Origin: Embleya scabrispora DSM 41855
GTDB lineage: Bacteria > Actinomycetota > Actinomycetes > Streptomycetales > Streptomycetaceae
Length of the DNA: 64,000 nucleotides
Reading direction: 5' to 3'
Assembly: GCF_000372745.1 (NCBI RefSeq)
Contig: NZ_KB889640.1
Coordinates: 194-64,193, forward strand
Position 1 is the stretch's first letter. Each line of letters starts with the position of its first letter. Of the stretch, positions 10,020 through 45,262 are shown one piece after another. The notes under the pieces were generated by a model. The model made no database searches. It was not told where the DNA came from and worked only from the letters and a program-made list of their open reading frames with translations. Made by a program: the position numbers and the translations under genes.

Positions 10020-10087
10020 ACTTTGATGGCCATCACACTTTGACGAAGGTCGCCCTTTGACGAAGGTCGCACTTTGATGAGTGTCGT
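10020..10087. repeat. Four tandem 17-bp units in a divergent promoter
   Basis: Units start at 10020, 10037, 10054 and 10071, each close to ACTTTGACGAAGGTCGC. Every copy keeps CTTTGA; the two central copies differ at one base. The first unit also embeds the perfect palindrome TGATGGCCATCA. The array fills the space just upstream of the ArsR gene start and of the oxidoreductase start, so it is probably the operator for both. Confidence 0.8.
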
Positions 10088-36720: not shown

Positions 36721-38103
36721 ATGGGCGACGAGACGCATCACCATGTCATCGTCGGAGGGAGCGCGGCCGGCATCTCCGCCGCTCTCGCGCTGCGCCGGCA
36801 CGGCTTCGCCGGGCGCGTCACCGTCGTCGAGGCGGGTCACGAACTCCCGTACGAACGACCACCGTTGTCGAAGGCGTTGGCCGGCGGCGAGCACGCCTTC
36901 CTGCATGCGATCCTGCCCCGGCAGGCGTACGCCGAGCACCGCATCACCCTGCTGCCGGCCACCCGCGCGCTGGCCGTGGACCCCCGGCGCCGGGCCGTCG
37001 AACTGGACGACGGACAGACGCTGTACGCCGATCGTGTCCTGCTGGCCACCGGTGTGCTCCCGCGCACCCTGCCGGTGCCGGGCGCCGAACTGGCCGGCGT
37101 GCTGACCCTGCGCGACGTCCGCGATGCCCGGGCGCTGGCCGCCCGCCTGCGCGCGGGCGGGCCGGTGGTCGTGGTGGGCGGCGGCTTCATCGGCCTGGAG
37201 GTCGCGGCGGTCGCGCGCGAGGCCGGCCTGGACGTCACCGTGGTCGAAACGGGCGCCCGGCCGTTGGAGGGCCCCCTCGGTCCGGTGTTGGCGTCGCGGG
37301 TGACGGCGCTGCACGAGCGGGCCGGGGTGCGGCTGCGCACCGGGGTGTCGGTGGCCGCGTTCACCGGCACGACCCACGTCACCGGGGTCCGCCTCACCGA
37401 CGGGCGGGTGCTGCCCGCCGCGACCGTGGTGGTCGGCGTCGGGGTGCGACCCGACACCGCGCTCGCCGAGGCCGCCGGCGTGCTCTGCGACGACGGCATC
37501 GTCGTCGATCGGCACTGCCACACCAGCGTGCCGTGGATTCTCGCCGCCGGCGACGCCACGAACCAGCCGCATCCGCACCTGCCCACCCGGGGCCGGATCG
37601 AGCACTGGGACAACGCCATGCAGCAGGGCGCGGTCGCCGGGGCCGTGCTCGCGGGCGTCCTGGAAAGCCACACCGCGCTGCCCTACTTCTACTCCGAACA
37701 GTACGGCCGGACCCTGCAGATGTACGGACGCCCGGCCCCCGGCGACGAGTTCGTGCCACGCGCCGAGGCCACGTCCGCGGTGGATTCGGTGGACCCGGCC
37801 GAGGCGGACGAACCGGAGGACGGCGGCTTCCTCGGCTTCTGGACCCGAGAGGGCGTCCTGGTCGCCGCCGCCGGCCTGGACCGTCCCCGCGAACTGCGCG
37901 CGGCACGCACGCTCATCGAGCGTCGTGTACCGGTGGACGCCGCCACGCTGGCCTCCCCCACGACCGACCTGCGGGCCCTGGCCAGGACTTCCGCCCCGCC
38001 CGGCCCATCGGTGGCCCGGCTCCGCTCCCGCCCGCAGACCCGATCACCGCACGCGGGCGGCACGAGCGGCACGAGCCTCGCGAGCGGCAAGGAGGCACCG
38101 TGA
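36721..38103 (+). CDS. Ferredoxin reductase component of aromatic ring dioxygenase
   Basis: 460 residues of the FAD/NAD(P) reductase family that includes BphA4/HcaD. FAD motif VIVGGSAAGISAALALRRHG, NAD motif VVVVGGGFIGLEVAAVAREAGL, and ILAAGDATN before the reductase C-terminal domain are all present, as is ELPYERPPLSK, typical of this group. The last 40 residues are an Arg/Ser/Pro/Gly-rich extension longer than usual. It would pass electrons from NADH to the Rieske ferredoxin encoded at 42026-42445, on the opposite strand. The stop overlaps the hydratase start (GTGA). Confidence 0.88.
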   Translation: MGDETHHHVIVGGSAAGISAALALRRHGFAGRVTVVEAGHELPYERPPLSKALAGGEHAFLHAILPRQAYAEHRITLLPATRALAVDPRRRAVELDDGQTLYADRVLLATGVLPRTLPVPGAELAGVLTLRDVRDARALAARLRAGGPVVVVGGGFIGLEVAAVAREAGLDVTVVETGARPLEGPLGPVLASRVTALHERAGVRLRTGVSVAAFTGTTHVTGVRLTDGRVLPAATVVVGVGVRPDTALAEAAGVLCDDGIVVDRHCHTSVPWILAAGDATNQPHPHLPTRGRIEHWDNAMQQGAVAGAVLAGVLESHTALPYFYSEQYGRTLQMYGRPAPGDEFVPRAEATSAVDSVDPAEADEPEDGGFLGFWTREGVLVAAAGLDRPRELRAARTLIERRVPVDAATLASPTTDLRALARTSAPPGPSVARLRSRPQTRSPHAGGTSGTSLASGKEAP

Positions 38104-38900
38104 CCGAGCACCCCACCGACCCGCGGATCGCCCGCGTCGCGGACCGCCTGTACGAGGCCGACCGCAGCGGCGCGGCCATTCCGCCGATCCGCACCGAACT
38201 GCCGGACGCCGACCCGGCCGCCACCGGTTACGCCGTACAACGCCACAACGTCGCGCGCTGGATCGCCGAAGGCCGCCGCCCGGTCGGCTACAAGATCGGT
38301 CTGACCTCCGCCGCCGTACAGCGCCAACTCGGGGTCGACCGACCCGACTTCGGCACCCTCTTCGCCGACATGGCGTACGCCGACGGCGCCGAACTGCCGC
38401 TCGCCGGCCTGATCCGGCCGCGCGCCGAGGCCGAGGTCGCGCTGGTCCTGGACCGCGATCTGGACCTGGGCCGGCATACGATCGTCGACATCCTGCGGGC
38501 CACCGCGTTCGTGCTGCCCGCGCTGGAGATCGTGGACAGTCGCATCGCCGACTGGGACATCGCACTGGTGGACACGATCGCCGACAACGGCTCGTCCGGG
38601 GCGTTCGTACTGGGCACCGTCCCGGTCTCGCCCGCCGCGGTGGACCTGGGCAGTTGCGTGATGACGCTGACCCGCGCCGGCGACGCGGTCTCCTGGGGCA
38701 CCGGCAGCGACTGCCTGGGCCACCCGCTCACCGCCGCCGTCTGGTTGGCGGACACCCTCGGCGCACTGGACACCCCGCTGCGTGCGGGCGACATCGTGCT
38801 CACCGGCGCGCTGGGCCCGATGGCCACCCTGGGCGCCGACGACCACCTCACCGCGCACATCACCGGCCTCGGGTCGGTCGGCATCCGGACCGGGAAGTGA
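38100..38900 (+). CDS. 2-hydroxypenta-2,4-dienoate (2-keto-4-pentenoate) hydratase
   Basis: 266 residues, full length for the MhpD/BphE/HsaE family. Characteristic stretches are [43 protein letters not shown] (metal-binding glutamates), [34 protein letters not shown] and the closing [12 protein letters not shown]. It adds water to the dienol released by the meta-cleavage hydrolase, giving 4-hydroxy-2-oxovalerate. GTG 38100 overlaps the reductase stop and has a perfect AAGGAGG. The next two genes complete the lower pathway. Confidence 0.92.
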
Positions 38901-38904
38901 CACC

Positions 38905-39900
38905 GTGATCGATTCCAGCACGGCAACGACATCGACGACGTCCGTCGAAGGCCGCCGAGCCGCGCCGGCGAAGGTCGCGATCATCGGCTCGGGCAACATC
39001 GGCACCGACCTGATGATCAAGGTGCTGCGCACCTCCTCTGTCCTGACCATGGGCGCCCTGGTCGGCATCGACCCCGACTCGGACGGCCTCGCCCGAGCCC
39101 GCCGGCTGGGCGTGCCCACCACGTCGGACGGCGTCGACGGGCTGCTCGCGCTGCCCGACTTCGACGAGATCGCCGTGGTCTTCGACGCCACCTCCGCCCG
39201 CGCCCACCACCGCCACGACGCGCTCCTGCGCGCGCACGGCAAGCGGGTGATCGACCTGACGCCCGCCGCGATCGGGCCGTTCGTGGTCCCGGCGGTGAAC
39301 CTGGACGCCCATCTCGCGTCGCCCAACGTGAACATGGTGACCTGCGGTGGCCAGGCCACCGTGCCGATCGTCGCCGCAGTCGCCCGCCGGGCCCCGGTGA
39401 TCTACGGCGAGATCGTCGCCTCGATCTCGTCCCGCTCGGCCGGCCCCGGCACCCGCGCCAACATCGACGAGTTCACCGAGACCACCTCCCGGGCCATCGA
39501 GCGGGTCGGCGGCGCCCGACGCGGCAAGGCGATCATCGTGCTCAACCCGGCCGAGCCGCCGCTGATCATGCGGGACACGGTGATCTGCCTGACCGGTGAC
39601 GGCGATCCGGCCGAGATCGCCGAGTCGGTGAACGCGATGGTCGCCGACGTGGCCGCGTACGTGCCCGGCTATCGGTTGCGGCACCCCGTACAGATCGACC
39701 CGGTGGACGCGGACCTGCGCGCCCGGCTGCGGCCCGACGAGGCGGACCGGGCCCGCTGGAAGATCACCGCCCTACTCGAAGTCGAAGGCGCCGGGCACTA
39801 CTTGCCCGCCTACGCCGGAAACCTCGACATCATGACCTCCGCCGCGCTCCGGGTCGCCGAACGAGTCGGCGCCCTCGCCTTCGAAGGGCCTGCCGCATGA
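38905..39900 (+). CDS. Acetaldehyde dehydrogenase (acylating)
   Basis: 331 residues of the MhpF/BphJ/HsaG family. The NAD-binding [17 protein letters not shown] motif, the catalytic-Cys segment [17 protein letters not shown] and [30 protein letters not shown] are diagnostic. It oxidises acetaldehyde, channelled from the aldolase, to acetyl-CoA. The start is GTG 38905, four bases after the hydratase stop, giving a 20-residue Ser/Thr-rich leader before the conserved core; a later start is possible. The stop overlaps the aldolase start (ATGA), as expected for partners that form one complex. Confidence 0.93.
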
Positions 39901-41226: not shown

Positions 41227-42039
41227 TCACCCGGCCTGCGCTCCGGGGGACGTGTGCCGGCGCGGGATGCCGGTGGTGCTGATGTCGATCACCGCTCCCG
41301 TCGTGGTCGCCGACTCCCTCGCCGCGAGCAGCACGTACGGTCCGACGCCGTCCTCGGCGCGCACCGCGACGCCGAGCGCGGACTGCTCGGTCACGATGCG
41401 GTCGATGGGCACCTCCCGGGCGATCGTGGTGTCCGCCAGCCCCATCGCCTTCGGTCCGCTGAGGCCGGTGGCCATCGGGCCCGGGGCAACCGCGTTCACC
41501 CGGATGTCCGGGGCCAGTTCGTAGGCGAGTTGGCGCACCAGGCCCAGGCCCGCGTGCTTGGCCGCGGTGTACACCGGTCCGCCCCCGGGACCGGGGTAGA
41601 ACGAGGCGTTGGACAGGGTGAACACGATGCTGCCGCGCGACCTGCGCAGCAGCGGTACCGCGGCCTTCGCGCCCAGCAGGTAGCCCTTGACGTTGACCGC
41701 GAACAACTCGTCGAAGCCGGCGGCCAGGACGTCGGCGGGCGTGTCGGTCAACGAGCGGGCGAAGTCCCACAGTCCGGCGTTGCCGACGAGGGTGTCCAGG
41801 CCGCCGAACGCCTCCTCGGCGCACGCGCACGCGCGCTCGTGGGCCTCGTAGCGGGTCACGTCGCCGACGACGGTACGGATCGCATCGCCCAACGCGGTGG
41901 TGAGTTCGTCCAGCCGCTCGGCGGACCGGTCGAGCACGACCACCCGCGCGCCCTCGGCGACGAAGCGCTCCACGACGGCCCGGCCGACGCCGGATCCGCC
42001 GCCGGTGACCAGGATCGACGAGCCCTCAAGCCATCCCAT
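41227..42039 (-). CDS. Short-chain dehydrogenase, cis-dihydrodiol dehydrogenase type
   Basis: 270 residues. The SDR cofactor motif is TGGGSGVGRAVVERF, NAG is in LVGNAGLWD, the catalytic Ser is in TLSNASFYPGPGGGPVYTAAKHAG with Tyr-x-x-x-Lys, and RVNAVAPGPMATGL follows. The order of the motifs and the NAGLWD spelling match dihydrodiol dehydrogenases of the BphB/HcaB group, which restore the aromatic ring after dioxygenation to give a catechol. ATG 42039 lies inside the 3' end of the ferredoxin gene (14-bp overlap). Last gene of the minus-strand operon. Confidence 0.88.
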   Translation of the reverse strand: MGWLEGSSILVTGGGSGVGRAVVERFVAEGARVVVLDRSAERLDELTTALGDAIRTVVGDVTRYEAHERACACAEEAFGGLDTLVGNAGLWDFARSLTDTPADVLAAGFDELFAVNVKGYLLGAKAAVPLLRRSRGSIVFTLSNASFYPGPGGGPVYTAAKHAGLGLVRQLAYELAPDIRVNAVAPGPMATGLSGPKAMGLADTTIAREVPIDRIVTEQSALGVAVRAEDGVGPYVLLAARESATTTGAVIDISTTGIPRRHTSPGAQAG

Positions 42040-42445
42040 GGCCGGCCCCTTCCGCGTCCCGACGGCCCGCGTTCGAACCGATCGCGCCCGGGCAGTGCCC
42101 GTCGACCCGATCGTCGCCGCCCCGTTCGATACGCACATACACATCCGCCCCGTCGACCCGCACCTCGTGCGTGGCCAGCGGCCGACACGCGGGTGTGGCG
42201 AGCGCCGCGCCGGTGCGCAGGCAGAACTTGGCCAGGTGCAGCGGGCATTCCACCGCACCGTCCTCGACCCAGCCGTCCGCGAGGGAGAAGTCCTCGTGGG
42301 TGCAGGTGTCGTCGACGCAGAAGAACTCTCCGTCGGACCGGAACACCGACACCGGTGGTGTGGTGTCCAGCCGCAGGGCCTGATCCTCGGGGATCTCGTC
42401 GATCCGACCGACTCGGATCCACGGCTTTCGTGTGTACTCGCTCAT
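42026..42445 (-). CDS. Rieske ferredoxin of the ring-hydroxylating dioxygenase
   Basis: 139 residues. The Rieske ligands are Cys48 and His50 (DTCTHEDFSL) and Cys67 and His70 (VECPLHLAKF), with the spacing of BphA3-like ferredoxins. Residues 1-105 form the domain; the last 30 residues are a Gly/Arg/Asp-rich tail overlapping the next gene and not typical of the family. It carries electrons from the reductase to the oxygenase alpha subunit. The start ATG at 42445 overlaps the stop of a six-codon mini-ORF, not directly the stop of the beta subunit. Confidence 0.9.
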   Translation of the reverse strand: MSEYTRKPWIRVGRIDEIPEDQALRLDTTPPVSVFRSDGEFFCVDDTCTHEDFSLADGWVEDGAVECPLHLAKFCLRTGAALATPACRPLATHEVRVDGADVYVRIERGGDDRVDGHCPGAIGSNAGRRDAEGAGHGMA

Positions 42446-42473
42446 AGGAAGATCCCGCTCATAGGAAGATGCT
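42440..42473 (-). repeat. 17-bp tandem duplication at the beta/ferredoxin junction
   Basis: Two adjacent 17-bp units start at 42440 and 42457 on the plus strand; the first 14 bases, GCTCATAGGAAGAT, are identical and the last three differ. The duplicated segment contains the overlapping stop/start of the two genes. Confidence 0.9.
42442..42462 (-). CDS. Six-codon relay mini-ORF (Met-Ser-Gly-Ile-Phe-Leu)
   Basis: Its ATG at 42462 overlaps the beta-subunit stop in an ATGA arrangement, and its stop overlaps the ferredoxin ATG at 42445 in the same way. It arose from the 17-bp duplication, whose length is not a multiple of three. Ribosomes ending the beta subunit could restart here and again at the ferredoxin, so coupling would be kept through a hexapeptide. 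There is no proof that it is translated. Confidence 0.5.
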   Translation of the reverse strand: MSGIFL

Positions 42474-43007
42474 GATGCTCGGCGCCAAGAGCGTGGTGGT
42501 GTCCAGCACGATTCTGCGTCGGGCGATGTGGAATCCCGGCTCCTGCGGGACCCGGCGCAGCAGGTCGGTGCGTTCGCCGAAGAAGGTGTCGTGGTGGCGT
42601 TCGGCCCGACTGCGCAGCACGTGGAAGTTGACCCGGACCTCGAACTCGCCGGAGTCCAGCCGTACCGGCCGAATGTTGGTGATCAACCGGCGGGTCCTGG
42701 AGGGGGGTTCCTCCGACCACGAACGGCCGGAGGCCAACCGGCGCACCCGGCCGGCCAGGAACGCCTTGTCGTCGTCGAAGAAGGCCGCCCCGTCCCGCCC
42801 GGCGACCTCCAGGTCGCGTTCGCGGACGGTCCGGGTCATCCGGGTCGGCAACCAGTAGTGCACATCGTCGTCGAACAGCTCCAGCCATTCGTCGAACCGC
42901 TGATCGTCGAGGAGTTCGGCCTCCAGGTAGAGGAACCGTTCGATCTCGTACCGGGTTTCGACGTCGACTCCGGTGCGCGTGTGTGGTGTGGCGGCGAGTT
43001 TGCTCAT
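42459..43007 (-). CDS. Aromatic ring-hydroxylating dioxygenase, beta subunit
   Basis: 182 residues with the NTF2-like fold of BphA2/HcaF-type beta subunits: EIERFLYLEAELLDDQRFDEWLELFDDDVHYWLP is the classic N-terminal helix pair, followed by RRLITNIRPV, NFHVLRSRAERHHDTFFGERTDLLRR and the C-terminal RRRIVLDTTTLLAPSISIFL. It is structural, helping to assemble the alpha3beta3 oxygenase. ATG 43007 overlaps the alpha-subunit stop. Its last codons are inside the tandem duplication described at 42440-42473. Confidence 0.93.
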   Translation of the reverse strand: MSKLAATPHTRTGVDVETRYEIERFLYLEAELLDDQRFDEWLELFDDDVHYWLPTRMTRTVRERDLEVAGRDGAAFFDDDKAFLAGRVRRLASGRSWSEEPPSRTRRLITNIRPVRLDSGEFEVRVNFHVLRSRAERHHDTFFGERTDLLRRVPQEPGFHIARRRIVLDTTTLLAPSISIFL

Positions 43008-44338
43008 GCGAGGTGCGCCTCCTGTTCCCGCTGCTGCCGGCTCTTGTCCCGCTCGGTGATCTCCGGCCAGCTCAGCCCGGACATCAGGTCCGCCCAGCGC
43101 CGGTACATGCCGCGGGCCGCCATCTCGGTGTACATGTCGTCGGTGACCCGGCCCGGCATGCCGTCGGTGCCGTGCCGTTCGTGGCCCAGGCCCATCCGCG
43201 CGTTGAACGTGGTCTTGCGCGCCTGGTGGCCGCGCAGCACCTGCTGGATCTCGGTCCAGTTCTCGCCGTCGTCGGTCTCGAAGACGCCGGCCGCGCTGAA
43301 CGTGCGGATGGTGCTGGTGCGGACCGCCTGCTTGGCCCGCTCGTCGGCGTCCTTGGGCAGGTAGGTCCACGACCACACCTCGATCTGGCCGGGCCCGCGC
43401 GGATGCCAGACCCGCATGGTGTTGTTGATGGTCAGCCAGGAGAAGTTGGGGAAGACGGTGTTGTGTCCGTTGACGGCCAGCGCGCGGTGCTCGCCGATCC
43501 GGCGGTAGATCTGTTCGCGGTTGGCCACGACCCACGCGTCGAAGTCGGGTCCGGCCTGGGTGGGTACCAGGTCGGGGCGCAGGCCGAAGCCCGAGCCGTG
43601 GCCGTTGCCGGCGTACTGCCGGCCGGGCGCGGCGGCACTTTGTTCCTGGAACTCGGCGAGCACCGCCGGGTCTTCGATCAGCGCCACCAGTGCGGAGGCG
43701 TGCGAGGACGGCACATGGTACATATCGCTTGCGAACTGCTCCGCGGCGAACTTCCAGTTGCAGTCGATGACCCATTTGGTGGCGCCGGGTACCAGGGTCA
43801 GGCCCTCGTCGTAGCGGTCGGCGAGGGCGTCGAAGTACCAGATCATGTCGCCGAGATAGTCCTCGAAGGCGGGCGCGCTCTCGTCCCAGGTGCCGAAGAT
43901 GAAGCCCTTGTGGTTGTGCAGCCGCGGCACCTGCGTCGGACCCCACTTGGACTTGTCGATCTCGTCGTGGTACGCGCGGTCCTGCATCGGCACGTTGACC
44001 AGTTCGCCCGCCAGGTTGTAGCCCCAGCCGTGATAGGTACAGGTGAACGCGCGGGCGACGCCCTCGTCGGCGCGGCAGATGCGCATGCCTCGATGCCGAC
44101 ACTGGTTGAGGAACGCCTTGACCGACCCGTCCCGTTGGCGGACCACCAGGACCGGGTCCTCGGCCATGTAGGTCTGCACGAAGCTGCCCGGCTTGGCGAG
44201 TTGGGTGTCGTGCGCGAGGAAGAGCCAGCTGCGGGCGAAGACCCGTTCCAGCTCGCCCTGGTAGACCTCGGGGTCGGTGTAGATGCTGGGGTTGATCAGC
44301 CCTTGGTCGGGCTGGACCAGCTCGGTGACGTCGAACAT
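43004..44338 (-). CDS. Aromatic ring-hydroxylating dioxygenase, alpha subunit
   Basis: 444 residues. The Rieske centre has Cys80-x-His82 (NQCRHRGMRIC) and Cys100-x-x-His103 (FTCTYHGWGYN). The mononuclear iron ligands His208 and His213 are in ASDMYHVPSSHAS, with bridging Asp205. The protein is similar in length to biphenyl, phenylpropionate and cumate dioxygenase large subunits, but the exact substrate cannot be told by eye. It should introduce two hydroxyls into an aromatic ring, using electrons from the ferredoxin and reductase encoded in this cluster. ATG 44338 has AAAGGG upstream, 18 bp after the extradiol dioxygenase gene. Confidence 0.93.
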   Translation of the reverse strand: MFDVTELVQPDQGLINPSIYTDPEVYQGELERVFARSWLFLAHDTQLAKPGSFVQTYMAEDPVLVVRQRDGSVKAFLNQCRHRGMRICRADEGVARAFTCTYHGWGYNLAGELVNVPMQDRAYHDEIDKSKWGPTQVPRLHNHKGFIFGTWDESAPAFEDYLGDMIWYFDALADRYDEGLTLVPGATKWVIDCNWKFAAEQFASDMYHVPSSHASALVALIEDPAVLAEFQEQSAAAPGRQYAGNGHGSGFGLRPDLVPTQAGPDFDAWVVANREQIYRRIGEHRALAVNGHNTVFPNFSWLTINNTMRVWHPRGPGQIEVWSWTYLPKDADERAKQAVRTSTIRTFSAAGVFETDDGENWTEIQQVLRGHQARKTTFNARMGLGHERHGTDGMPGRVTDDMYTEMAARGMYRRWADLMSGLSWPEITERDKSRQQREQEAHLA

Positions 44339-44356: not shown

Positions 44357-45262
44357 TCAGTCGGTCCCGGGAGCGGGCGGGGCTGCGAAGCGGTGGCCCC
44401 AGTTGCTGGGCGACTCGTAGTGGCTGACGGTCCAGTCCCGGTCGTCGATGACCCGGCCGTTGTAGCCGTATTCGATGTCGAAGCCGGAGGGGGTGCGGAC
44501 GTAGAAGGAGGTCATCCGGTCGTTGCTGTGTTCGCCGATGGACAGCGGGATGGGGAGCTCCTGCTCCTGGACGGCGTCCAGGGCACGGCCGACGGCTTCC
44601 AGGGTGTCGACTTCGAGCATCAGGTGACCCAGGCCCGAGGTCGGTGCGCCCGGGATGGCGGCGAAGGCGATCGAGTGGTGGCGGGGGTTGCAGTGCAGGA
44701 AGTGTGCGGACTGCGGGCCGAAGGCGATCGTGTCGGAGAGCCGGAAGCCGAGGTGGTCGGTGTAGAAGGCGGCGGCCTGGGCGACGTCGTCGGCCAGCAG
44801 GAAGGTGTGGCCGATGCCGATCTCGCCGACGGCGGTCTCGCCGGCGACGAAGGTGACGCCGCGCGGTGAGGTGAAGCCGGTCTTGTCGACGGTCGGGCCC
44901 CAGTACGCCTCGATGGTGTTGCCGGTCGCGTCGCGGAACGCGATCAGGCCGCGGACTCGGCGGCGTTCGGCCAGGTCCGGGTCCTCGTGCACCTCGATGC
45001 CGCGCGAGCGCAGCGTGTCGGCGAGGGTCTCCAGTCGCTCGGCCGACCTGACCTCCAGGCCGAGGGCGACCAGGGACTGCGGGCCGGCGGGTTCACCTGC
45101 CTCGACGGCCAGTCGCCAGGAACGGCTGTCGGTCTTGAACAGGAGGGTGTCCGGGTCGGCCGAGTGGGCGGGCTGCAACCCGAGGATGTCGGGGCCGAAC
45201 CGCTGCCACGCCTCCAGGGGGCCGCGTACGACGACGTAGCCCAGGGCGCTCACGATGCTCAT
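44357..45262 (-). CDS. Extradiol ring-cleavage dioxygenase (VOC family, BphC-like)
   Basis: 301 residues, the two-domain type I extradiol enzyme. The iron ligands His152 (GIGHTFLLA), His213 (GLGHLMLEV) and Glu264 (GFDIEYGY) are in the expected positions, and His195/His196 and Tyr254 match the second-sphere residues. It opens the catechol made by the dioxygenase and dihydrodiol dehydrogenase at a meta position. The gene lies 155 bp after the hydrolase gene and 18 bp before the oxygenase alpha gene. Substrate likely a substituted 2,3-dihydroxyphenyl compound. Confidence 0.92.
   Translation of the reverse strand: MSIVSALGYVVVRGPLEAWQRFGPDILGLQPAHSADPDTLLFKTDSRSWRLAVEAGEPAGPQSLVALGLEVRSAERLETLADTLRSRGIEVHEDPDLAERRRVRGLIAFRDATGNTIEAYWGPTVDKTGFTSPRGVTFVAGETAVGEIGIGHTFLLADDVAQAAAFYTDHLGFRLSDTIAFGPQSAHFLHCNPRHHSIAFAAIPGAPTSGLGHLMLEVDTLEAVGRALDAVQEQELPIPLSIGEHSNDRMTSFYVRTPSGFDIEYGYNGRVIDDRDWTVSHYESPSNWGHRFAAPPAPGTD

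Follow-up and report, generated by a model that had tools for sequence, protein, structure and literature searches.

A 17-bp tandem duplication at the junction of dioxygenase beta-subunit and ferredoxin genes in Embleya, with a mini-ORF as its probable by-product

In synthetic two-cistron, or bicistronic, designs, which are engineered and carry strong ribosome-binding sites, a short first cistron has its stop at the start of the wanted gene. A construct of Schoner 1986, cited in PMC12548453, belongs to these designs. Natural gene pairs that overlap in ATGA are described as being coupled by termination-reinitiation (Huber et al. 2023, PMC10666635; reviewed by Brown and Wade 2025, PMC12548453; see also Huber et al. 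2019, PMC6728339). The reported effect of spacing differs between systems. In Haloferax volcanii, coupling at 13/14 nt amounts to 40–60% of that at the native overlap, and in E. coli at 14 nt it amounts to 60% for hyfH-hyfI and to under 20% for menD-menH (PMC10666635). As recounted in PMC12548453, coupling was abolished at +13 nt in the Schoner construct and, in B. subtilis, was reduced about tenfold at +12 nt, while one E. coli study described no effect on coupling from −4 to +25 nt. Given the published losses at +12 to +14 nt, a relay through a short ORF would have something to rescue; because the published systems disagree at about +13 nt, such a relay could help at this distance but would not be needed a priori.

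Short ORFs beside the start of a gene are described in several natural elements. The MIRU of mycobacteria places a short ORF at a gene's start codon; the resulting −4 link probably keeps the damage to expression of that gene small (PMC12548453). ORF-11 and ORF-18 of the integron site attI1 encode a small peptide and bring ribosomes to a gene that has no good start region of its own, and amino acid changes in ORF-11 are reported to matter little (PMC8876359). The minigene mg2 of axe-txe is a natural mini-ORF that lies just upstream of an operon gene and affects the translation of that gene (PMC8708949). In the open-licence literature, our searches returned the general mechanism; among the matches listed, no paper on the origin of such an arrangement by duplication of the stop/start junction itself was found, nor did we find a paper on Embleya and dioxygenases.

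We analyzed a window of 64,000 nucleotides from the soil-type actinomycete Embleya scabrispora DSM 41855 (contig NZ_KB889640.1, positions 194 to 64,193), in which genes for an alpha subunit, a beta subunit and a Rieske ferredoxin follow one another on the minus strand; this order, assigned with Pfam, is that of an aromatic-ring-hydroxylating dioxygenase operon. The ring-hydroxylating dioxygenase alpha subunit (444 aa, 43004..44338) has a Rieske domain (PF00355, E 2e-17) and a catalytic domain (PF00848, E 8.2e-26), and its gene overlaps the beta gene by 4 nt in ATGA. The beta subunit (182 aa, 42459..43007; PF00866, E 1.7e-44) has the C-terminus ...SISIFL*, with the stop TGA at 42461-42459 of the minus strand. 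The Rieske-type ferredoxin (139 aa, 42026..42445; PF00355, E 8.9e-17) starts with the ATG at 42445-42443, behind a weak Shine-Dalgarno (SD) match. The next gene encodes a short-chain dehydrogenase (minus strand, about 41227..42039; PF00106 over 41227-42027, E 7.4e-46; start placed at 42039 by the gene caller), whose start overlaps the end of the ferredoxin gene. An extradiol-type dioxygenase gene (44357-45262) lies upstream of alpha in the same operon neighbourhood.

The junction between beta and ferredoxin consists of two 17-bp tandem copies on the minus strand, ATCTTCCTATGAGCGGG (copy 1, 42454..42470) followed by ATCTTCCTATGAGCGAG (copy 2, 42437..42453), which a direct lag count showed to be identical at 16 of 17 positions, including 15 consecutive ones at lag 17. 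Copy 1 contains the beta stop and the start of a mini-ORF, and copy 2 contains the stop of this mini-ORF together with the start of ferredoxin. Beta terminates at the first ATGA, where the mini-ORF ATGAGCGGGATCTTCCTATGA (42442..42462, minus strand), which reads MSGIFL*, begins; the second ATGA closes the mini-ORF and starts ferredoxin. Both mini-ORF ends are therefore of the overlapping type found in coupled pairs, and the spacing from beta to ferredoxin is +13 nt. The coordinates and the lag count agree with an earlier note on this DNA, which had described a 17-bp tandem duplication over the stop/start junction with two successive ATGA overlaps.

The junction repeat is very probably a true duplication, since no 17-bp two-copy tandem with ≤1 mismatch occurred in 200 first-order Markov shuffles of the window. 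Tandem Repeats Finder gave no junction repeat in its output even at a minimum score of 30; the direct lag count detects it. Two-copy tandem duplications are real but ordinary in Embleya, given that seven of period 12–40 with ≤1 mismatch are present in the window (mean of 0.77 in 60 shuffles) and that they number 92.5 per Mb in 1.6 Mb of pieces from a related Embleya genome, designated here as G002. A second 17-bp two-copy tandem with one mismatch is found at 10044-10077 of the window.

The beta-ferredoxin operon was found in three of the four Embleya genomes compared, namely the window strain, G002 and G001, the last of which has the same sequence as the E. hyalina NBRC 13850 record. In the fourth genome (G003, 1650 contigs), the operon had no match. 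The junction reads CTA TGAGCGGGATCTTCCT ATGAGC in the window strain, CTG TGAGCGGACTCTTCCT ATGAGC in G002 and CTC TGAGCGGACTCTTCCT ATGAGC in E. hyalina. In all three, the ferredoxin start lies exactly 17 nt after the first base of the beta-stop NTGA, and ATGA is kept on the ferredoxin side; on the beta side, the overlap is ATGA in the window strain, GTGA in G002 and CTGA in E. hyalina. The duplication is real, is common to the three species and leaves the beta and ferredoxin genes intact, and the shared 17-nt offset indicates that it predates the split of these species. The ferredoxin tail beyond ...DVYVRI (about 42026-42140 in the window; loci L027 and L028) is highly variable in length among the three species; the total length is 149 aa in E. 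hyalina (G001), 139 aa in the window strain, where the next gene overlaps the tail, and 118 aa in G002.

The nearest outgroup found, Streptomyces ossamyceticus (locus L003, with the same sequence as L059), whose beta subunit is 78% identical, has a single junction, CTA TGAGT, with one ATGA. In locus L060 (beta 62%), which comes from a genome labelled with the same genus as the one that has the S. ossamyceticus sequence, the ferredoxin start is ambiguous, being either a GTGA over the beta stop (−4) or an in-frame ATG nine bases on. The single ATGA of the former and the possible −4 start of the latter suggest, from one clear and one ambiguous outgroup, that a single-copy −4 ATGA overlap is likely the ancestral state. 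The earlier note had guessed as much and had pointed to related genomes, and both the single ATGA in S. ossamyceticus and the offset common to the three Embleya species emerged from that comparison. The outgroup sample comprised 36 beta loci (5, 19 and 12, some of them duplicate places) and three further matches without a locus. When ferredoxin was searched for in these 36 loci with flanks of about 1.5–2 kb (tblastn, E ≤ 1e-3), a match directly after beta was found only in the three Embleya species, S. ossamyceticus and L060, and several other loci had a ferredoxin piece before beta. The beta relatives obtained in a plasmid search (225 records) were all below 60% identity; in the one plasmid examined, pBD2 of Rhodococcus erythropolis, the beta-ferredoxin gap is +8 nt, which speaks neither for nor against a −4 ancestor.

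Given that copy 2 has ATG in all three species, copy 1 most likely also had ATG at its birth and would later have become GTG in G002 and CTG in E. hyalina. GTG is usable as a start and CTG is non-canonical, and a canonical start is kept in two of the three species. The peptide after the start is SGIFL in the window strain and SGLFL in both relatives, one of five codons showing an amino acid change (I/L). CTA is rare among the 142 leucine codons of six cluster genes (CTG 93, CTC 38); it occurs once, as the last Leu codon of beta. In the single-copy ancestor, this codon would not have been free to change, as the ferredoxin ATG takes its A from it, and the CTG and CTC of the two relatives are as expected if the duplication lifted that constraint. 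The start-like NTG at the end of beta carries no sign of selection, since any CTN Leu codon before TGA yields NTG. Retention of ATG in the window strain was considered as a signal of selection and rejected as uninformative. At fourfold sites the relatives differ from the window strain by only 0.15–0.24 (G002 alpha 40/217, G001 alpha 33/215, G001 beta 21/86; G002 beta was left out because of a gap), and an unconstrained base is expected to be kept about 80% of the time at such divergence; retention of CTA, and with it ATG, is thus no evidence of selection.

The length of the duplication leads to the same conclusion. By arithmetic, a duplication of n bases over ATGA yields a closed mini-ORF whenever n = 2 mod 3, barring an internal stop. 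The earlier note had treated the MSGIFL frame as a special restoration of coupling; this interpretation was not supported, given that one in three duplication lengths would give such a frame anyway and that the start is not kept as ATG. In the relatives the spacing persists while the start codon of the mini-ORF differs, and the mini-ORF is therefore probably a by-product of the duplication that is tolerated, not an evolved control device. A relay is possible in the window strain, whereas the mini-ORF does not appear to be uniformly kept in the genus.

SD strength was evaluated as the anti-SD duplex energy of the 20 bases before the start, with a 16S tail sequence that we presumed. The value for ferredoxin was −4.9 kcal/mol, compared with a median of −4.0 for 2000 random 20-mers, and the values for other cluster genes were −9.2 (alpha), −11.8 (beta) and −8.5 kcal/mol (extradiol-type dioxygenase). 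The mini-ORF, at −2.2 kcal/mol, is weaker than the random median and lacks an SD of its own such as that of ORF-11. In the sampled genomes, a duplex of −5.0 or weaker precedes 16.8% of 190 genes at a −4 overlap and 30.8% of 211 genes after a gap of 1–60 nt; a weak SD is uncommon yet not exceptional among short-spaced genes. Given its weak SD match, ferredoxin would depend at least partly on ribosomes arriving from beta. Full dependence should not be assumed, considering that in Streptomyces the RBS of rsrA itself, an ATGA-linked gene, accounts for part of its translation (PMC5472188).

Taken together, we consider it probable that an old slippage duplication opened the overlap, that ferredoxin is still fed from beta and that the mini-ORF is a by-product not maintained genus-wide. 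In the ancestor of Embleya, a 17-bp tandem duplication of the replication-slippage type would have arisen across the −4 (ATGA) overlap; with the beta stop retained in copy 1 and the ferredoxin ATG in copy 2, the spacing would have changed from −4 to +13 nt. Ferredoxin would most likely still be translated by ribosomes that have just left beta. In the window strain, these ribosomes may either pass by way of MSGIFL with its ATG start or cross the short gap and reinitiate at ferredoxin directly. The mini-ORF would then be an optional, lineage-specific stepping stone that was not kept as such across the genus. Against this account stand the persistence in the window strain of the rare CTA that gives the ATG, the usable mini-ORF start in two of three species, the lowered or abolished coupling that several published systems show at +12 to +14 nt, an ancestral state drawn from one clear and one ambiguous outgroup, and a relay geometry that occurs at about twice the expected frequency elsewhere, as described below.

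We surveyed relay-like frames in 2.44 Mb, consisting of 2.04 Mb of Embleya and 0.40 Mb of G408, a genome of the same family (L071-L110, L112-L190 and the window; all 20-kb pieces were taken except L111, which overlaps the window). A home-made codon-score caller gave 1935 genes with predicted starts and 1118 same-strand neighbour pairs, 213 of which had a gap of 1–60 nt; two copies of the beta/ferredoxin junction were set aside, leaving 211. Open relay geometry with ATG or GTG was found in 12 of these 211 pairs, and three more had CTGA. Pairs with NTGA at both ends numbered 13/82 in the matching phase (phase 2; 7.0 expected) and 8/78 (11.2 expected) and 1/51 (2.4 expected) in the other two (phase 2 versus phase 1, Fisher p = 0.008). 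Twelve of the 13 are open relays, and for seven of the 13 the SD duplex is at least as strong as −8.5. The Fisher p for the association between upstream and downstream NTGA in phase 2 was 0.002 overall and 0.018 without gaps of ≤4 nt; by gap length, it was 0.012 up to 25 nt and 0.071 for longer gaps. No association was found in the other two phases of the same 211-pair sample. This excess of about twofold, confined to the matching phase, is exploratory and is treated as a lead, since the test was framed after a first look at the data, the starts are predicted, good SDs are frequent (7/13) and the pieces from three Embleya species are not fully independent.

One of the 12 open relays of the survey is a second relay-like junction in the window itself, at 38897-38910 on the plus strand (GTGACACCGTGATC), where a three-codon frame, GTG ACA CCG TGA, joins genes called at 38100-38900 and 38905-39900. 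A 600-base query around 38900/38905 had no blastn match in L094 (G002:C4:460001-480000), the 20-kb piece of G002 that contains the operon. Given that this stretch lies a few kb from the operon, the lack of a match in L094 indicates that the neighbourhood of the operon is not fully conserved in G002.

A relay that actually functions, in which ribosomes leaving beta start at the mini-ORF ATG, translate MSGIFL and pass to ferredoxin, so that a poor +13 step gives way to two −4 steps that determine how much ferredoxin is made, is possible but doubtful in our estimation. In the earlier note, passage through the hexapeptide was proposed as a possible means of tuning the ferredoxin:oxygenase ratio. 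The exact geometry in the window, the weak ferredoxin SD, the published systems in which coupling drops at +12 to +14 nt and the survey (12 of the 211 other short-gap pairs with this geometry; double NTGA in 13 pairs of the matching phase, 7.0 expected; Fisher p = 0.002) are consistent with it. However, the start codon is not conserved, being CTG in E. hyalina, the mini-ORF start nearly lacks an SD match (−2.2), one of the five post-start codons changes its amino acid between species, and one in three duplication lengths is expected to produce such a frame. The E. coli study recounted in PMC12548453, in which coupling was undiminished between −4 and +25 nt, also speaks against a relay.

It is unlikely that ferredoxin starts independently, either without an SD or from a weak GAGCGGG/GAGCGGA placed upstream by the duplication, with the mini-ORF and coupling to beta both irrelevant. 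The anti-SD duplex of ferredoxin is −2.2 kcal/mol in S. ossamyceticus and −4.9/−5.0 in Embleya, and the predicted structure of the start region is milder with the duplication (−11.9 kcal/mol) than in a single-copy version of the window junction (−16.1), although a single 70-nt fold is weak evidence; the partial use of its own RBS by rsrA (PMC5472188) would fit as well. The value of −4.9 is nevertheless near the random median of −4.0, and the share of −4-overlap genes with a duplex of −5.0 or weaker is just 16.8%. Birth of a new SD from the duplication was rejected as an explanation on account of the small gain, which ends near the random median.

Quite improbable in our view is the broader proposal that relay mini-ORFs are selected and recurrent in Embleya and its relatives, keeping coupling as genes drift apart, with junction duplications of 2 mod 3 length as one route of birth and the start codon (ATG, GTG or CTG) grading downstream flow between species; its best ground is the double-NTGA excess in the matching phase. 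An assembly or sequencing error can practically be dismissed, for although the draft assembly is in 190 contigs, the same 17-nt offset recurs with different bases in the G001 (E. hyalina) and G002 assemblies of two other species.

The junction is of interest on either outcome. If the relay works, the three species form a natural experiment, in which one geometry is combined with an ATG, GTG or CTG start and the ferredoxin:oxygenase ratio is directly comparable. If it does not, the junction is an example of how duplication across a stop/start junction can open a gene overlap and leave both reading frames intact. More generally, where a gene ends in CTN TGA, a Leu codon followed by the stop, a start-like codon at that position should not count as evidence for a small ORF.

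Among the described systems, the ATGA termination-reinitiation pairs share with the Embleya junction the 4-nt stop/start overlap, seen here at both mini-ORF ends, partner genes of one enzyme system and a likely ancestral single ATGA. The junction differs from them in having two serial overlaps with a six-codon frame between. MSGIFL would be akin to the MIRU, ORF-11, axe-txe and two-cistron systems only if it is translated. Like the MIRU, it is a short ORF linked at −4 to the start of a downstream gene; in a comparison by description, the MIRU is a dispersed, apparently mobile repeat, whereas in Embleya the added bases duplicate the junction itself as a local 17-bp copy. ORF-11 is preceded by an SD of its own and belongs to the leader upstream of the first cassette, while MSGIFL is almost without an SD match and follows a full gene. 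Unlike MSGIFL, mg2 of axe-txe has two codons and lies 15 nt before txe, in a leader inside the antitoxin gene. The synthetic bicistronic designs share the geometry of a short first cistron with MSGIFL and differ from it in being engineered with strong ribosome-binding sites.
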